A DNA stretch of 45,686 bases from positions 1 through 45,686 of the forward strand of contig DATJQV010000015.1 in assembly GCA_035505375.1 (NCBI GenBank). Reading direction: 5' to 3'. The stretch is from a bacterium. GTDB lineage: Bacteria > Hydrothermota > Tepidihabitantia > Tepidihabitantales > Tepidihabitantaceae. Positions 3,195 through 28,977 of the stretch are shown here, in pieces; positions within the stretch are counted from its first letter, which is position 1; the number at the start of each line of letters is the position of its first letter. A program made the position numbers and the translations under genes. The notes beneath the pieces are model-generated. The model ran no database searches. It was not told the origin of the DNA and saw only the letters and a list, made by a program, of their open reading frames with translations.

Positions 3195-3210
3195 ATGGCC
3201 GAGGGTCCGG

Positions 3211-3287
3211 TCAATCCCCAATCTACAATCCTCAATCCGCAGTCCACAATCCTCAATCTACAATCCAAAATCTAAAATCCTAAATCA
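3211..3287. repeat. Degenerate AATC-type low-complexity repeat
   Basis: About ten imperfect copies of short words such as AATCCTC, AATCTAC and AATCCAAA run through this intergenic stretch between the PorV-like gene and the lipoprotein promoter. It is not a perfect microsatellite, since each word differs by one or two bases. Similar degenerate word repeats occur at 14.0, 19.4, 28.1, 28.6 and 31.2 kb. Confidence 0.6.
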
Positions 3288-3306
3288 CCGTTCTGTTCGT
3301 GCCGGG

Positions 3307-8343: not shown

Positions 8344-8382
8344 GCCGAGAGCCGCAGAGCCGTTGTGGCTGAAACTCAGCAC

Positions 8383-8622
8383 CGGGATAGGAGCCGTCAT
8401 AAGCGTCGGGATAAGAGCCCTCATAAGCGCCGGGATAAGAACCCTCATAAGCGCCGGGATAAGAACCCTCACAAGAGCCGGGATAAACGCCGTCACAAGA
8501 GTCGGGCTAGACGCCGGCATAAGAGCCGGGATAGACGCCGGCATAAGGGTCGGGATAAACGCCGGCATAAGAGCCGGGATAAGAACCCTCATAAGAGCCG
8601 GGATAAGCGCCCTCATAAGCGT
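8383..8622. repeat. 24-bp tandem repeat array, ten units
   Basis: Ten head-to-tail 24-base units, each beginning CGGGATAAGANC and continuing with a second ATAAG-containing half. The unit is itself two related 12-base halves (ATAAG recurs about every 12 bases). Units differ by one to six bases, and an eroded partial copy follows at 8623-8646. There are no unique spacers, so this is not CRISPR. Because 24 is a multiple of three, several frames stay open on both strands (for example an LIPALMRV-like octapeptide on minus and GIRTLISA-like on plus), but none has a convincing ribosome site. It sits between the restriction-like operon and the small-paralog island. Confidence 0.9.
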
Positions 8623-8695
8623 CTGGATAAAGTCCGGGGTAGACCTCCCCCCAACGACGGGGGGGCGGGAAATCAGCACTTAGCTCAACTTTCTC

Positions 8696-12975: not shown

Positions 12976-14007
12976 TTAGGAGTTGGTGGCGGACCGGTAA
13001 ATCTGCGCGAGTGTCTCCCCCGCACGGGGCCAGAGGTAGTTCTTCATGATGCGTTCGCGCAGGGCGGAGTCTTTCTTGCGGGCGAGAGTCTGTTCTATCG
13101 CGTTCCGAATCGATTCTTCCGACGCCGGTTCGAGGTAGGCGGCAAGGTCGGCGAAATACTCCTGCGTCCCACCGTAGCGGGTTATGCAGACTTTCGCGCC
13201 GGCCAGCCCGGCTTCGAGCGCGGCGAGTCCCGGGGTTTCGTATAGCGACGGCAGGATAAAAGTGTCGCAGGCCGCGTACGCAGATTCGAGCAATGGCGAG
13301 TCAGGGGCAAGCCCGGGTATGACCTTGATGTTGGGCGAATCGGCCACCAGCTTCATACACTGGTTGGCATACCCGGTCTCGGATACCGGGCCGATGAGCA
13401 CGGTCGGGACGTTCAGGGCTTTGGCCGCCTTGAGCATGGGGAAGACGTTCTTGCGTGCCGGGCCGACGTGGCCCACGTAGAGGACGAAGTCGCGCAGGCC
13501 GTACTCCTTTACGAACAGGTCCGGGGTGGCATTCGCAAACCTCTCCTCCACGCCGTTCGGCAGTTCGTGCATCTTCGTTTGTGGCACACCGAAGCCTTTG
13601 GCCAGCATGTCCATCTCGTCCATGGTGTCAGGCAGCACCAGTTCAGCCATGTCGCAGAGTTCTTTGCAGAACATGTGCTCGGTCCAGAACCCGCCGCGTT
13701 GTCTGACTTTGCCGGCAAGCCCGATCGCGGTCGCGACTCGTGCCGGACTGTGGCGGGAGTAGAACACCGGCGTAACCACAAGCTTCATGCCCAGGCCGTG
13801 CATTGAGCGGCCAAGGTGGTACGTGCCGACGTGCGAGCCGAACAGGTGGAAGAAAGCGAAATCTTTGAGGTCGTAGCGCTTCCAGGGATCGAACAGTTCG
13901 ACCTCGACCCCGAGCTTTGCCAGTTCGCGCGCCAGCGAGCGCATTTGCACTTCTACGCCGCCGCCAAGCACGGTAATCGCGGAGAACGAACCGAAAAGAA
14001 CCCTCAT
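12976..14007 (-). CDS. Glycosyltransferase, GT4-like
   Basis: 343 residues from ATG 14007 (MRVLFGSFSAI). The longer ORF to 14043 only adds a poorly supported leader overlapping a repeat. The fold is GT-B: an N-terminal Rossmann start with GGGVEVQMRSLARELAKLGVEVELFDP, a donor-site half with LYVGHVGPARKN and PTVLIGP, and the EX7E-type segment PSLYETPGLAALEAGLAG near residues 265-282, typical of GT4 retaining transferases. It probably adds a sugar to a surface glycan with the genes at 14.1-18.3 kb, from which it is separated by a repeat-filled 124-base gap. Confidence 0.85.
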   Translation of the reverse strand: MRVLFGSFSAITVLGGGVEVQMRSLARELAKLGVEVELFDPWKRYDLKDFAFFHLFGSHVGTYHLGRSMHGLGMKLVVTPVFYSRHSPARVATAIGLAGKVRQRGGFWTEHMFCKELCDMAELVLPDTMDEMDMLAKGFGVPQTKMHELPNGVEERFANATPDLFVKEYGLRDFVLYVGHVGPARKNVFPMLKAAKALNVPTVLIGPVSETGYANQCMKLVADSPNIKVIPGLAPDSPLLESAYAACDTFILPSLYETPGLAALEAGLAGAKVCITRYGGTQEYFADLAAYLEPASEESIRNAIEQTLARKKDSALRERIMKNYLWPRAGETLAQIYRSATNS

Positions 14008-14019
14008 AGCGCAGGACGC

Positions 14020-14108
14020 AATTCCCAAGTCCCGAATTCCCAATTCCTACTTGCGGACTCAGGCTTTGGCATTTGGTATTTCGTCATTGATTAGGAATTA
14101 GGAATTGG
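14020..14108. repeat. Inverted low-complexity AATTCC repeat element
   Basis: The left arm (14021-14050) repeats AATTCCCAA/AATTCC words. The right arm (14089-14108) is GATTAGGAATTAGGAATTGG, the inverse of the left. The middle (14070-14085) has TTTGGCATTTGGTATTTCG words. It fills the gap between a glycosyltransferase start and the deacetylase stop. Confidence 0.6.
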
Positions 14109-14131
14109 TCATTCTCGTTCGGAACTATACC

Positions 14132-15751
14132 CTAGCCGCGATGGCCCTGCAAGTTCTTCTGTGCGCGACGCCTCAGGCTGCGCGCATGCAACAGGAGGCT
14201 GGGTTTGCGGGTAGTGAGTTGCTTGCGGTCGAACGGGATCGGTTCAGGCAGCGCGTGCCATTTGAGCCCGGCAAGGTCGTGTTTGCCCGAAGCAGCCGGC
14301 AGCGTGGCAAAACGCTCGCCCTGCTCCACAACAATCGGGACGTCGCTATCTTCCGTGTTTACAGTTGCTTCCAAGACATTCTCGGAAACGCTGGCGCTCC
14401 AATGCAGCCGCTCGCGACGCTGCCACCACCGCGCAAACTGGGTCATGGTCGTCGTCGCGCCGCACCGTTCCTTGGCGTAGTGAAGTACTTCTGCCAGCAG
14501 GTCGCTGAACTGGGCGATACGCTCGGGGTGGTCGTAGAGGATGCAGGGTTCACGGCGGGCGACCTGCAGGTCTATCACTGAGCGGAAGTAGGCTGCCATC
14601 TGTTTCTCGTCGGCGCGGGCAGCAACCAGCCTGCCGAGGCAAATCGGATGGACCGGCACCTGCAGGACGCGGCTGAGACGAGGAGCCAGAAGCGAGGCGT
14701 GAGGAGTTTGGTCAGAGCGGTGCTTCACCCTTCTCGATTCACTCTCGACGACCGGCCGGAAGGGAAGGTCGTCGTAGGCAAGACAGAACTCGGAGGAGTA
14801 TTCGAAGCCGAGTTCCTCAAATGCCCGGTTGAGGTTTGGGTTCCATTCGCCAAACGGCGCTACTACGCCGCAGGGCTTGAGGCCGGCGTCGGCCATCGCC
14901 TCCTTTGCCGCGCGGAAGTTGTCGAGGTTGTGCTCATGGTCGGGGTAGACCGTGTGGCGCATGCAGTGCAACTGGATGTCGTGGCCCTGGCGAGCCAGGT
15001 CAGCGAACAGGTCGAGATGCGCGCGGTGCTTGCCCACGTTCACGAACCAACTGAACTTCATGCCGACCCGCTCGGCAAGCCGGGCGACTGCCTCAAGGTC
15101 GCGCCGCGGACCGAAGTCAGTGTCAACCCGGAATGCGAAGACGCTTGAGGTCCGGCCGGGGTGTGTGGCCAGGTGGACGTAGGGCAGGCCCCGGTGTGCC
15201 AGCAGCGCTCTGAGGCAGTTGCCGACGAGCCTGCGCACCTCTCCCCTGCTCGCGCGCGCCACCGTGTCGTAGGGCAGCCGTGGAGTACGAGCGTAGAACT
15301 GCTTGGGCCCGTAAGCAACCGTGCTGAGCACATCGAGCACACGGAATGGCAGTATTATGCAGAAGCCACGGCCAACCGGCGCCGTGCGGATTGCCATGTC
15401 GCCTGAGTCCGCAGTTCCGACGTTCGCGCCGGAGAGTATCGTACCGGCAGTGTCGGTATCGACGATTCCCACGTTGCGGAAAAGTGCAGACTCACCCTCG
15501 GGCGCTATCCAGCGCAGACGCCTGTTCTCGGGCGTGAACTCGAGCCAGACACCGGCGGCATTGATACCCGGAGCAAGGAGGCCGCCGCCTGATTCGATGT
15601 GTTGCCATATCCTCTGCGCATGCAGGGCGCCCGGTTCCTCGTTGAGTATGACCACTGTCCGGCCGCCGATCCGCGAACCGGTGTGGAAGCAGACGCCCTC
15701 CTGGCGCAGGAGTTCCACCCAATGGATGTCATCTTTCCAGAGCGTAATCAT
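14132..15751 (-). CDS. NodB-like polysaccharide deacetylase family protein
   Basis: 539 residues from ATG 15751, which overlaps the flippase stop as ATGA. An N-terminal region of about 195 residues precedes the NodB domain: FAFRVDTDFG (D210, D212), then LHCMRHTVYP with the metal-binding H262-x3-H266, and an APFGEWN motif. These residues fit the zinc-dependent carbohydrate de-N-acetylase family. The C-terminal 100 residues look beta-rich and unassigned. A basic stretch around residues 345-370 is encoded by a degenerate repeat (14677-14751) and looks inserted. It probably deacetylates or trims the exported glycan. Confidence 0.8.
   Translation of the reverse strand: MITLWKDDIHWVELLRQEGVCFHTGSRIGGRTVVILNEEPGALHAQRIWQHIESGGGLLAPGINAAGVWLEFTPENRRLRWIAPEGESALFRNVGIVDTDTAGTILSGANVGTADSGDMAIRTAPVGRGFCIILPFRVLDVLSTVAYGPKQFYARTPRLPYDTVARASRGEVRRLVGNCLRALLAHRGLPYVHLATHPGRTSSVFAFRVDTDFGPRRDLEAVARLAERVGMKFSWFVNVGKHRAHLDLFADLARQGHDIQLHCMRHTVYPDHEHNLDNFRAAKEAMADAGLKPCGVVAPFGEWNPNLNRAFEELGFEYSSEFCLAYDDLPFRPVVESESRRVKHRSDQTPHASLLAPRLSRVLQVPVHPICLGRLVAARADEKQMAAYFRSVIDLQVARREPCILYDHPERIAQFSDLLAEVLHYAKERCGATTTMTQFARWWQRRERLHWSASVSENVLEATVNTEDSDVPIVVEQGERFATLPAASGKHDLAGLKWHALPEPIPFDRKQLTTRKPSLLLHARSLRRRAQKNLQGHRG
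14677..14751. repeat. Degenerate repeat inserted in the deacetylase gene
   Basis: GAGGAGCCAGAAGCGAGGCG-type purine words on the left and a CTTCTCGATTCACTCTCGACG-like inverse on the right. It encodes a basic, non-conserved-looking segment just before the conserved RVLQVPVHPICLG stretch, and the frame is kept. Confidence 0.45.
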
Positions 15752-17145
15752 CCGTTCCCCGCCAGTCCTATGTCCTCGGCAGTAATGCCCCGCAGCAGCA
15801 GGATGAACACGGAATAGGTTAGAGCCCCGAAACCGATGCACCCGACCAGGTTCATGTGGCGCAGGAGGTAGATGACGACCGTCATGGGCACAACCGCCGC
15901 TACCGGCGCGAGGGCCCTCAGGTCGAAACTGGGCTTCGTCAGCTTCAGCAGGTCTCGCCCCATCAGGCCGAGCAGGACCACCTCGCCGGCGACGATGGCC
16001 AGGGCCGCGCCCATGGAACCCGAAAGCGGAATCGCGACCAGGTTGAAGACGACCGCGGCTCCCACTCCGATCGCCGTGTTTCTCAGGAACCGGCGTTCGC
16101 CGCCGGCGGCGAGAAGCGTGTACCCGGCGAGACTGCTGAACATGCTGAGCGGCAGGAACCAGACCATGATACGCAGGACCGCGAAGGCCGCCACGTACTC
16201 GGAGCTGAATACGGCCCCCAGAATCGGCCGGGCAAGGACGACCGCGCCGACACAGAATGGGGTGCTGACCGCGAGAATCAACCGCGCTGCCGTGCCGATG
16301 AGCTCGGGCAGGCGGCCGGGTTGGTCCTTGATGAACCGGGCGACTACCGGGAAGAACGCTGTGTAAAAGATGCGGTCCAGGGTCATGAGAAAGAACACCA
16401 GGCGGTAGGCGCTGTTGTAGATTCCGGTTTGCTGAAAGGTCGCGATGAGGCCGAGCAAGATCAGGCCGAGGTTGACGTGCACCTGAGTGAGGATCGATGA
16501 AGCCCCGATGGGCCAGGCCGACTTCAGCAGTTCCCGCCAGCGGTACGAGACTATCCGGAACCGAGGCAGGCCGAAACGCGGCACGTAACTCAGGAACAGC
16601 ACGAGCCCGCCCAGAAATGTGGCCAGGCCGAACGCGACCGGCACGAGCAGCAGGTCGGAGGAATTCCGGACCAGGACAAGCGCAATGCCGAAGTAGGCGC
16701 AGTCAGTGACCACACGAGAGACCGAAACAAAGCCCATCTTCTCCGCGCCGATGAATACCCACTCAAACAGCAGGCTCTGGATGATCACTCCCGCGGCAAA
16801 GAGAACGAGCAGCCATCTCACGCTTGCCGGCTTGGGCAGGACCAGAGCAACAAGCCCCATCACCGCGGCCGCAATGACGCTGAGCAGCAGCCGCAATGGC
16901 ACCACGCTGCCGACCAGTTCACCTGCCGTGGACCGGTCCTGCGCCACCGAACGGGTTCCGACCGTTGCCAGCCCGAGGTCGGAGAACACGGCACCGTAGG
17001 CCATGACCGCAGCGGCAAAGCCGACCTGGCCGAATCCATCGGCCCCGAGCCGGCGCGCCAGTAGCGCGACCGCAAGAAAACCGAAGATGCGCGACGCGGC
17101 CTCGCCGGCAAGAAGGTATCCCGCGTTCCTGACCGGTGTCCTCAT
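15748..17145 (-). CDS. Polysaccharide flippase, MOP/Wzx family
   Basis: 465 residues from ATG 17145. The longer upstream ORF lies inside the glycosyltransferase gene and is rejected. About 12-14 hydrophobic segments begin with NAGYLLAGEAASRIFGFLAVALLARRLGADGFG, the typical start of Wzx/polysaccharide biosynthesis flippases, with the matching YNSAYRLVFFLMTLDRIFYTAFFPV segment mid-protein. It would move lipid-linked glycans across the inner membrane. The start overlaps the upstream glycosyltransferase stop (ATGA), and its own stop overlaps the deacetylase start in the same way, so the genes are translationally coupled. Confidence 0.9.
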   Translation of the reverse strand: MRTPVRNAGYLLAGEAASRIFGFLAVALLARRLGADGFGQVGFAAAVMAYGAVFSDLGLATVGTRSVAQDRSTAGELVGSVVPLRLLLSVIAAAVMGLVALVLPKPASVRWLLVLFAAGVIIQSLLFEWVFIGAEKMGFVSVSRVVTDCAYFGIALVLVRNSSDLLLVPVAFGLATFLGGLVLFLSYVPRFGLPRFRIVSYRWRELLKSAWPIGASSILTQVHVNLGLILLGLIATFQQTGIYNSAYRLVFFLMTLDRIFYTAFFPVVARFIKDQPGRLPELIGTAARLILAVSTPFCVGAVVLARPILGAVFSSEYVAAFAVLRIMVWFLPLSMFSSLAGYTLLAAGGERRFLRNTAIGVGAAVVFNLVAIPLSGSMGAALAIVAGEVVLLGLMGRDLLKLTKPSFDLRALAPVAAVVPMTVVIYLLRHMNLVGCIGFGALTYSVFILLLRGITAEDIGLAGNG

Positions 17146-25299: not shown

Positions 25300-25834
25300 C
25301 TATGCCCTTCCGGCCCGGCCCAGCTTGTAGCCTTCCTCAAGGCACTTTACGTTCAGCGGAATCAGCTTCGCCTTCCGGACGAACTCGTGCTTGGTCATTT
25401 CGACCACGGCGTCAAACGGCACCAGCCCGGTTGCACCGACGTAGGCGCCGAGCATGACCATATTCGCCGCTTTGCCGGAGCCCGCGTCAATGGCGATCTG
25501 GTTGGCCGGCACTTCGACCACGACCAGGTCCTTCCGGTCCGGCCTCACCGTGATGAGCGACGTGTTCACTATCGAGAACCCGTCCGGCTGCTGGCTCGGG
25601 CAGAACCGCTCAAGCGAGGGCCGGTTCATTACGACCGTGTCGCGCGGGTTCGAGACGATCGGTGATGCAATCGGCTCGTCGCCGATGATCACCGTGCAGT
25701 TGGCCGTGCCGCCCCGCATCTCCGGTCCGTACGACGGCAGCCAGACCACTTCCTTGCCCAGTTCCATGCCGACCTCCGCGAACAGCTTGCCCGCGAGCAT
25801 CACTCCCTGTCCGCCGAATCCGGCGAACACTGTC

Positions 25835-25845
<11 letters not shown>
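25300..25845 (-). CDS. korC: 2-oxoacid:ferredoxin oxidoreductase, gamma subunit
   Basis: 181 residues from ATG 25845, with GGAAGGGGGAG upstream. The ORF opens at 25905, but that part is inside korB. VFAGFGGQGVMLAGKLFAEVG followed by LPSYGPEMRGGTANCTVIIG is the hallmark of the gamma domain, which binds the CoA part of the substrate complex. Together with the other three subunits it oxidatively decarboxylates a 2-oxoacid (2-oxoglutarate or a branched-chain oxoacid) to an acyl-CoA, reducing ferredoxin. It overlaps the end of korB by 11 bases. Confidence 0.9.
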
Positions 25846-26634
<789 letters not shown>

Positions 26635-26638
<4 letters not shown>

Positions 26639-27753
26639 GATTTGCCTCCTTTGGAGGTTCGGGCTCCCTCATTCGTCAGTCGTCGTTCGGCACTCGACGT
26701 TCCACTGAGCCGGGACTTGACTGCGTGGACTACTTCCTCCGGGGACGGCACCATGCCGCCCGACCGGCCGAAGAAGTACACCGGTTTCTCGTGCCCCATC
26801 GCGCAGTGCACGTCCTCGACCATCTGGCCCATCGACATCTCAACCGACAGCAGGAACTCGGCTTTGTGTCCCAACTCCAGCACCTTTGCGTCCGGGAACG
26901 GGAAGAGTGATATCGGCCGCAACAGGGCCGCCGTGATTCCCTGAGACGCCAGTTGCGCGATGGCAGTCTTGCAGATGCGGGCGGTCGTACCGTAGGCCAC
27001 CAGCAAGACCCGGTACGGTTTGTCGGTGTTAAACTCCTCGAAACGTACTTCCTCGCGCCGCATCATCTCATACTTCTCGGCGAGCACGTTGTTGAGCCTC
27101 TCCTCGGCTACCGGGTCGAGGTACAGCGAATTCACCACGTTGGGTTTGCGGCCCTTGGCGCCCGTCGTGGCCCAGTCCTTGGGCGGCAGGGGCGGGAACT
27201 TCGGTTCCTTGAACTCAACCGGCTCCATCATCTGGCCGATCATGCCGTCGCCGATGACGATGACCGGGTTGCGATAACGGTCCGCCCGGTCGAACGCAAG
27301 CGGCATCAGGTCGACTGCCTCCTGCACCGAGGACGGGGCCAGCACCAGGCACCGGTAGTCGCCGTGTCCGCCGCCCTTCACGGCCTGAAAGTAGTCGCCC
27401 TGCGACGGTAGAATGCCACCGAGGCCCGGTCCGGTCCGGACAATGTTCACAAACACCGCCGGCAGCTCGGCCGCGGCGATGTAGCTGATTCCCTCCATCA
27501 TCAGGCTGATGCCCGGGCTGGACGACGTCGTCCACGCCCGCGCGCTGGCGCCGGCCGCGCCGTAGACCATGTTCGCGACCGCCACTTCGCTCTCAGCCTG
27601 CAGGAACGCGCCGCCGACCTCAGGCATCCGACGCGAAAGATACTCGGCCACCTCCGACTGCGGGGTCAGCGGGTAGCAGAAATAGACCAGCCCGCCGGCC
27701 CGAATCGCGGATTCGGCAATCGCCTCATTGCCCTTCATCAGCACCTTAGCCAT
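26635..27753 (-). CDS. korA: 2-oxoacid:ferredoxin oxidoreductase, alpha subunit
   Basis: 372 residues. The N-terminal pyrimidine-binding domain has GNEAIAESAIRAGGLVYFCYPLTPQSEVAEYL and AWTTSSSPGISLMMEGISYI, and domain II contains VLLVAYGTTARICKTAI; both are typical of KorA/VorA of the family with a separate ferredoxin subunit. The substrate cannot be fixed from sequence alone. The C-terminal 25 residues (SGTSSAERRLTNEGARTSKG) are encoded by a CATTCGTCAGTCG-like degenerate repeat and look like a later addition. It overlaps the ferredoxin gene by eight bases. Confidence 0.92.
26657..26703. repeat. Degenerate TTCG-word repeat in the 3' end of korA
   Basis: Words such as TTCGGG, CATTCGTCAG, TCGTCGTTCGG and CACTCGACG run through the last codons of korA. 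They match in style the repeat inside the P-loop gene at 28536-28628. Confidence 0.4.
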
Positions 27754-27991
27754 TGACTTGCTCCTTCTGTGCCGTTTCTTCCTGTTCGATGGTTATTGCC
27801 ACGTCCGGGCACATGAACGCGCAGAAACGGCAGCCGATGCAGGCCTGCGGGTTTGCGGCGCTGGCATAGAAATAGCCCTTGTCGTTTATCTCCTTGGACA
27901 TCGCCAGCACCTGTTTAGGACAGGTGTTGACGCAGAGCGCGCAACCCTTGCATCGGTTCTTCTCGATTGTCACCCTGTTAACCTTGGCCAT
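27746..27991 (-). CDS. korD: 2-oxoacid:ferredoxin oxidoreductase, 2[4Fe-4S] ferredoxin (delta) subunit
   Basis: 81 residues with two cluster-binding motifs, CKGCALCVNTCP (from residue 14) and CIGCRFCAFMCP (from about residue 51), which together bind two 4Fe-4S clusters. It passes electrons from the korAB active site to external ferredoxin. GGAG lies six bases before the ATG. It is the first gene of korDABC, with an eight-base overlap into korA. Confidence 0.92.
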   Translation of the reverse strand: MAKVNRVTIEKNRCKGCALCVNTCPKQVLAMSKEINDKGYFYASAANPQACIGCRFCAFMCPDVAITIEQEETAQKEQVNG

Positions 27992-28050
27992 AATACTCCA
28001 ATCTGCGAATGAAAGTCATCATCCGGCGTCTGCTGGTCCTTCTTTCGGGA

Positions 28051-28100
28051 CTTCTGCATTCTGGTTTCTGGATTCTGAATTCTGCATTGTCTGGATTCTT
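28051..28100. repeat. ATTCTG-word repeat upstream of korD
   Basis: Imperfect direct repeats of TTCTGCATTCTG and TTCTGGATTCTG fill the gap between the P-loop gene's stop and the kor leader. Confidence 0.55.
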
Positions 28101-28977
28101 ACTGGACCCGGTATTTCCCTATCCAGTTCGTCGGTTCCCACGGCTTCAGCATTAGACGGTCGAGGACCATGACCGTGTATCCGCATTTATCTGCGTCAAA
28201 CCGTTCGAGCATGGTGCGCTGGACCGCCACGAAAGCGATGCGGGCGCCGGTCTTCTGCGCAAGCGCCTCAGCCAGGGTAATCCCTTCTTCAATCACCGCC
28301 GGCGTGGTTTCATCCACCAGGTGTGAGTTCACGACGATGCGGTCAACATTGATGTGGGACGCAGCACCGATGCCGGCCATCATCTGCTCTGCCGTCTCGA
28401 CCGTGGCGGTGAACGGCCGACGCGAGTTCAACACAAAGAGAGCCGAGTAATCCTCGGGTCGCATCCCTTCGGCAACCGAGGCCATCACCCTCGCTCCTGC
28501 CGGGTCTCCGCCAAGGTCGAGAACGACCAAGGGTGTCGTTCGTTCGTCCTTCGTCCATCGTCCTTCGTCATTCGGACTTCGAGTTTCAATCGTCATTCGG
28601 GTTTCGGGCTTCGAGCTTGGCCCTTCGATCGCTCCTTTGACCTCGGGCACAATGATGGGCAGGTCGGCGTTCACCAGCGCGCCGGCCGGGATGAGCACCT
28701 CAATGCCCTGACTCCGAAGCTGGTCCCTCACCTCGCGGCTGCGGAAATACAGGTTCACGATGTCGAGGTCGGCGACCGACACCCTACGCCCCAGCCCGCG
28801 CATCCGCAGTGAGAAATTGACCGCGACCTCGGTCTTACCCGACCCGAATCCGCCGCAAAAGACGTTCACACGTCGCAGCTCATTCAGGAACTTGTCCGGG
28901 TGGAACCAATCCGCGCCAGATTGGCGCAAACAAACGGCCTCGCCGGCGTCAGCAACCCGCGAACATGGTGAATTCAT
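28099..28977 (-). CDS. P-loop NTPase (CobQ/MinD-like nucleotide-binding fold)
   Basis: 292 residues. Walker A is GGFGSGKTEVAVNFSLRMRG (about residues 41-60), followed by VSVADLDIVNLYFRSREV, as in SIMIBI-class ATPases, and a Walker B-like VVLDLGGDPAG. Between these, residues about 117-147 (EGPSSKPETRMTIETRSPND and on) are encoded by a degenerate TTCG-word repeat and look like an in-frame insertion in a surface loop. The gene lies directly upstream of korDABC in the same direction; a link to metal-cluster assembly or oxidoreductase maturation is inference. The ATG is nine bases after a -10 box (leaderless). Confidence 0.8.
   Translation of the reverse strand: MNSPCSRVADAGEAVCLRQSGADWFHPDKFLNELRRVNVFCGGFGSGKTEVAVNFSLRMRGLGRRVSVADLDIVNLYFRSREVRDQLRSQGIEVLIPAGALVNADLPIIVPEVKGAIEGPSSKPETRMTIETRSPNDEGRWTKDERTTPLVVLDLGGDPAGARVMASVAEGMRPEDYSALFVLNSRRPFTATVETAEQMMAGIGAASHINVDRIVVNSHLVDETTPAVIEEGITLAEALAQKTGARIAFVAVQRTMLERFDADKCGYTVMVLDRLMLKPWEPTNWIGKYRVQ
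28536..28628. repeat. Degenerate TTCG-word repeat inside the P-loop gene
   Basis: Runs of CGTTCGTTCGTCCTTCGTCC-type and CATTCGGACTTCGAG-type words, about 8-12 bases each, entirely within coding sequence and keeping the frame open. Base and amino-acid composition differ sharply from the flanking ATPase core. Confidence 0.65.

Follow-up and report, generated by a model that had tools for sequence, protein, structure and literature searches.

Degenerate heptad arrays as probable in-frame insertions in enzyme loops of a WOR-3 genus

A compact P-loop ATPase carries a hydrophilic loop between its Walker A and Walker B motifs, and the DNA beneath this loop consists of TTCG-type words recurring every seven bases. 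Is the loop a functional part of the protein, or is it translated repeat DNA? A preliminary description of the sequence had proposed that such repeats may be spreading into coding DNA in frame. The window, a stretch of 45,686 nucleotides, is contig C15 of the draft genome G000 (3.6 Mb, 90 contigs), which we compared within a set of six congeneric WOR-3 species (G000-G005, all draft assemblies); the ATPase ortholog is alignable in 16 genomes, G000 included. The tree was computed with FastTree on four genes, ORFs were called with a simple codon-usage model, and the census of arrays covered 578 kb of G000 (contigs C81, C75 and C15). Family scans covered VorB, NodB and the ATPase, and the remaining proteins were named by alignment and recognition of conserved motifs.

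The ATPase and its insert

The Walker A motif, the Walker B strand and the SIMIBI fold place the host protein among the SIMIBI-class P-loop NTPases (Table 1), and its model fold resembles SRP GTPases and MinD/Mrp-like proteins (TM about 0.45). Pfam and NCBIfam scans of the ATPase return no match. Its nearest named relatives come from genomes of candidate division WOR-3, among them UBA2258 and LacPavin_0920. In nearly every homologous locus with sufficient flank (window 25300-28977; loci L079-L106), the gene directly precedes a VorB-VorA-VorC-type operon, and loci combining the ATPase with a Vor-type operon occur in Riflebacteria, Tissierellia, Acidobacteria, Carboxydocella and others. The protein may serve the Vor-type oxidoreductase as an accessory or maturation ATPase.

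Table 1. Positions in the window of the ATPase gene, its motifs and insert, and other repeat features
Feature	Position	Strand	Remarks
P-loop ATPase gene, insert host, 292 aa, SIMIBI class	28099..28977	minus	
Walker A GGFGSGKT, residues 42-49	28831..28854	minus	G42, G45, G47, K48 invariant in 22 homologs
Walker B-type strand VVLDLGGDP, residues 151-159	28501..28527	minus	D154, G156, G157 invariant; model strand 150-155
In-frame insert spanning residues ~119-149, net gain of 27 residues vs insert-free orthologs	28531..28623	minus	residues 123-143 pLDDT <50
Period-7 TTCGNNN array under the ATPase insert	28527..28632	plus	lag-7 identity 28/35; TRF period 7 at 28543-28574
Copy of the ~45-bp dispersed element inside the ATPase array	28577..28618	plus	
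Core TTTCAATCGTCATTCG of the dispersed element	28584..28599	plus	
Intergenic array of TTCTGNN (= CAGAANN) words, immediately downstream of the ATPase gene	28041..28103	plus	
VorB 18-residue C-terminal insert (gene 26635-27753)	26647..26702	minus	in G000, G003; absent in G001, G004, family
NodB-like insert, about 20 residues (gene 14132-15841)	14677..14751	minus	only G000, G003; absent in eight other genomes
Two adjacent inverted heptad arrays, CAATTCC + GGAATTG type	14003..14114		
CAATCNN-type period-7 array	3206..3296	plus	

The loop, EGPSSKPETRMTIETRSPNDEGRWTKDERTT, comprises about 31 residues and separates Walker A (G42-K48) from the VVLDLGGD strand (D154); both its DNA and its peptide are as the preliminary description gave them. 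The best lag-7 self-identity of the array is 28/35, whereas five shuffled copies contain no window reaching 24. Aligning orthologs, the check proposed at the outset, does recover insertion-free versions, both within the genus (G004) and in 12 genomes of the same family, where a short turn, such as GAMESGGGVTVLD, occupies the site. Relative to the family ortholog the insert amounts to a net 27 residues, or 81 nt. When mapped on an AlphaFold2 model (pTM 0.79), as had also been proposed, the loop falls in a low-confidence stretch between helix 111-118 and strand 150-155, with residues 123-143 below a pLDDT of 50.

Three congeners carry net inserts at this one site, of 27 residues in G000, 35 in G001 and 57 in G003. 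The loops of G000 and G003 have both junctions and part of the sequence in common, and a middle block, GCTTTGCCCTCTT..., is common to the inserts of G001 and G003. Judged from the alignments, the pattern fits a single gain before the split of G000, G001 and G003, followed by turnover. The preliminary description had held that orthologs sharing the loop with conserved residues would speak against insertion. Such sharing is found in part: G000 and G003 have SPNDEGR-TKDE-TTP in common, which makes about 14 of 16 residues alike over one section of the loop, and this conservation counts against our preferred reading of the loop as insertion DNA and in favour of a conserved functional extension. One inherited insertion, however, predicts residues common to these two genomes, and more distant relatives have no loop at all. 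We regard a functional extension as very improbable, given that the loop is absent from G004 and the family, that its three carriers differ by 30 residues in length, and that its peptide is also found in an unrelated protein. Still harder to credit is an assembly artefact of metagenome-assembled genomes. Every genus member is a draft assembly, and repeats are difficult to assemble, but separately assembled genomes, including the public UBA2258 record, have homologous inserts at the same codon, and reading frames remain open in housekeeping genes.

Arrays and a dispersed element across the genus

A 181-bp query finds 28 places in G000, most of them matching over positions 28577-28619 of the window, the part of the ATPase array that contains a copy of a ~45-bp dispersed element. 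Alignment of the surroundings of 63 core matches gives the architecture TTCGRRY, TTCAATCGTCATTCG, NRYTTCGRRYTTCGRRYTTG, and information content drops to background on either side of it. The core (at most one mismatch) is present in 8-34 copies per genome in the six congeners and in 0-1 copies in four other family genomes; the lone match in G012 lacks the flanking heptads and was taken as chance. In G003 an in-frame copy of the element sits in the gene for a 626-aa relative of 2-oxoacid oxidoreductase alpha subunits, a protein unrelated to the ATPase, and G001, G002, G004 and G005 are without this segment. The element encodes ARMTIETRNSND in this protein and TRMTIETRSPND in the ATPase, with RMTIETR in both. 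An inverted pair of element copies, facing each other, overlaps the start of a 626-aa ORF in G000 (C81:42844-42958), a start that may be miscalled. RNA folds of four element copies are mixed, with z from -0.2 to -4.2.

The census yielded 104 period-7 arrays in 578 kb of G000. Shuffled sequence gave none, and 1.15 Mb of G012 a single array. Of the 104, 50 are intergenic, 40 have at least 90% of their length within called ORFs, and 14 are partial; arrays make up 27 bp per kb of intergenic DNA and 5.8 bp per kb of gene sequence, so that their density is about five times lower in genes. Arrays at N-termini may represent start-site errors, because the ORFs were called with a simple codon-usage model. 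For 12 coding arrays, a G012 protein could be aligned over the whole array. Nine of these are net insertions of 8 residues or more, compared with 4.3% of control segments (Fisher p=6e-10), and 11 are net insertions of 4 residues or more, compared with 6.8%. The proposed in-frame spread into coding DNA thus draws support from empty-site orthologs, from the element in a second, unrelated protein and from genome-wide arrays that are partly coding; we infer the spreading itself from presence and absence between species.

Hairpin formation was considered as a general property of the arrays and holds for a minority of intergenic arrays only: inverted doublets or imperfect hairpins account for 12 of 76 intergenic arrays versus 5% of controls, and none of 60 coding arrays has an inverted partner within 120 bp. 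A small number of distant WOR-3 families (genomes G131, G132, G134, G135, G139) have CAGAANN arrays as well, a patchy distribution with most of the phylum lacking them.

Inserts in other enzymes

The preliminary description had pointed to similar inserts in a NodB-like gene and in a gene called korA, which we identify as VorB (NF005507). Both are indeed lineage-specific insertions (Table 1), the NodB insert being absent from the congeners G001, G002, G004 and G005; its heptad character, on the other hand, is weak, and its DNA falls below the pass level in the period-7 scan. Filled and empty sites are likewise found in other enzymes: PheS and PyrF are without the insert in G004 and G005, PheT in G001 and G004, and SelA in G001, G002, G004 and G005, the SelA insert containing four CGCCCCT units identical in G000 and G003. 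Insert gains are nested on the four-gene tree, SelA and NodB excepted. The patterns of these two require a loss in G002 or another placement of G002 in the tree, and they count against our preferred explanation. On the evidence of sequence comparison, heptad inserts have entered loops of ordinary enzymes repeatedly in one WOR-3 genus, protein-synthesis enzymes included, and close relatives retain versions of these enzymes that are free of the repeats.

At the loop where PheS of G000 has heptads, PheS of G003 (L197) and G001 (L204) has an in-frame palindromic GGGGACAGTCCC...GGTACAGTCCCC element similar to the GGGAC-type ends that RAYT genes have in this genus. Since this GGGAC-type repeat is also in frame, at least two kinds of repeats enter genes here. 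At one codon position of a glycosyltransferase, G003 and G004 have CTAACTN heptads, G000 has GTCCCTN and G001 has AAGCTTC (L214, L218, L219; G000 C81:116783-116836). Three heptad families at a single site suggest that word families replace one another where a site is already occupied.

Origin of the inserts and relation to known repeats

The ATPase loop is probably translated insertion DNA that came from dispersing heptad arrays and was kept in a tolerant site. Short degenerate arrays with fixed anchors (e.g. TTCG or CAGAA) and free 2-3-nt spacers would disperse to new chromosomal sites and mostly end up in intergenic DNA. Within genes, those copies would survive that leave the frame intact and fall in tolerant loops or at protein ends, and they would then be inherited with the gene. 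The ATPase insert, with its copy of the ~45-bp element, would have been gained before the three carriers split and would have changed in length since; selection would merely filter insertions, and the loop would have no essential function. Comparison among the genomes establishes the insertion relative to empty-site orthologs, the dispersal of one element to unrelated sites and the in-frame retention of inserts in core enzymes.

Replication slippage from a chance seed at each site would involve no movement between sites, the likeness of arrays reflecting a common mutational vocabulary. The idea has been published for heptamer abundance (PMC4692102), and it agrees with the homogeneity of certain arrays (SelA 4x CGCCCCT, PheT 3x GGGACGA) and with the CAATC family, where identical neighbouring spacers are in excess (26% vs 11%, p=0.004). 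In the TTCG family, however, neighbouring spacers are identical in 23 of 295 pairs, 7.8% compared with 9.2% for random words, and in the CAGAA family in 15.6% compared with 13.6%. Because neighbours in these main families match no more than random words do, slippage alone does not explain them, and the phase-broken core with fixed flanks at many unrelated sites also stands against it; we consider slippage unlikely as the general account. The arrays are not near-perfect tandem copies of one unit: anchors are fixed, and spacers are independent of their neighbours in the two main families.

Movement of REPIN-like heptad arrays by the genomes' own RAYT (Y1) transposases is less plausible still. 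The six congeners have 4-7 RAYT genes per genome and three repeat-poor relatives have none, and the inverted doublets among intergenic arrays would suit such a mechanism. Most of 20 RAYT loci, however, end in GGGAC-type inverted repeats, with heptads seldom near (one directly behind the stop codon, three at 290-860 bp), coding arrays lack inverted partners, and G007 has five RAYTs but no TTCG or CAGAA arrays. A role of RAYT as the heptad mobiliser is thus unsupported, the RAYT genes being flanked by a different repeat. We identified neither target-site duplications nor a mobilising enzyme, and the congeners are too diverged for duplications to be read. A MITE would be expected to have terminal inverted repeats as well as target-site duplications; the inverted doublets among some intergenic arrays are what we observed in this respect. 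With considerable reservation, the arrays could be viewed as mobile DNA of a class of its own, in which anchors are fixed and spacers vary freely; a putative enzyme would copy them, and they would be able to replace one another at an occupied site.

In-frame repeat DNA in core enzymes is known mainly from Rickettsia and Wolbachia. Rickettsia palindromic elements (RPE; PMC10969869, PMC3767692) are characterised above all by in-frame insertion into metabolic genes, and the arrays described here are likewise small dispersed repeats that sit in frame in many metabolic genes unrelated to one another and are absent from orthologs. Unlike RPE, which are palindromes of ~100-150 bp, coding arrays here mostly measure 40-110 bp, have 7-bp units and lack an inverted partner. 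The heptameric repeats of Xanthomonas and Nostoc (GGGAATC, GGGGAYT) occur in hundreds of copies, mostly intergenic and some in inverted pairs, with 7-11% intragenic in Xanthomonas (PMC4692102). The WOR-3 arrays resemble them in period, high copy number, mostly intergenic location and occasional inverted pairs, but differ in having several coexisting word families, free spacers and many internal in-frame insertions in conserved enzymes. The heptad inserts are therefore RPE-like in effect and bacterial heptamer-like in form, and fit neither cleanly.

TAACTGA direct repeats of Beggiatoaceae and Cyanobacteria also have period 7 and, like the WOR-3 arrays, are mainly intergenic with some in ORFs (PMC4679880); they differ in that coding copies lie mostly at ORF ends, one fixed heptamer is dominant and forward copies contain stops in every frame. 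Tandem repeats of archaeal Borgs similarly create disordered protein regions from repeat DNA (PMC9879509), but in Borgs, which are extrachromosomal, the coding repeats are perfect at the amino-acid level, whereas the WOR-3 units are degenerate and seven is not a multiple of three. REPINs and RAYTs (PMC3116915) are comparable in the small dispersed elements, some inverted doublets and the presence of RAYTs in the genome, and differ in that the RAYT genes here are flanked by another repeat and not by heptad arrays.

Our literature search found no description of such insertion in WOR-3, although other papers may exist, and the WOR-3 phylum paper does not mention repeats. In-frame entry of repeats is extended here to an unrelated uncultured phylum and to a large scale, with about 40 coding arrays in 578 kb and perhaps 200-250 genome-wide, provided that the sample is representative and the gene calls hold. 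The filled and empty sites of the same enzymes across six species make the route from non-protein DNA to protein loop directly testable, and as a caution, such loops in WOR-3 proteins are not conserved domains. Longer periods are present as well: positions 8382-8631 of the window hold a 250-bp array of the CCGGGATAAGAG type with a 12/24-bp period, and 23 period-12 arrays are found in 578 kb of G000 versus none in shuffles.
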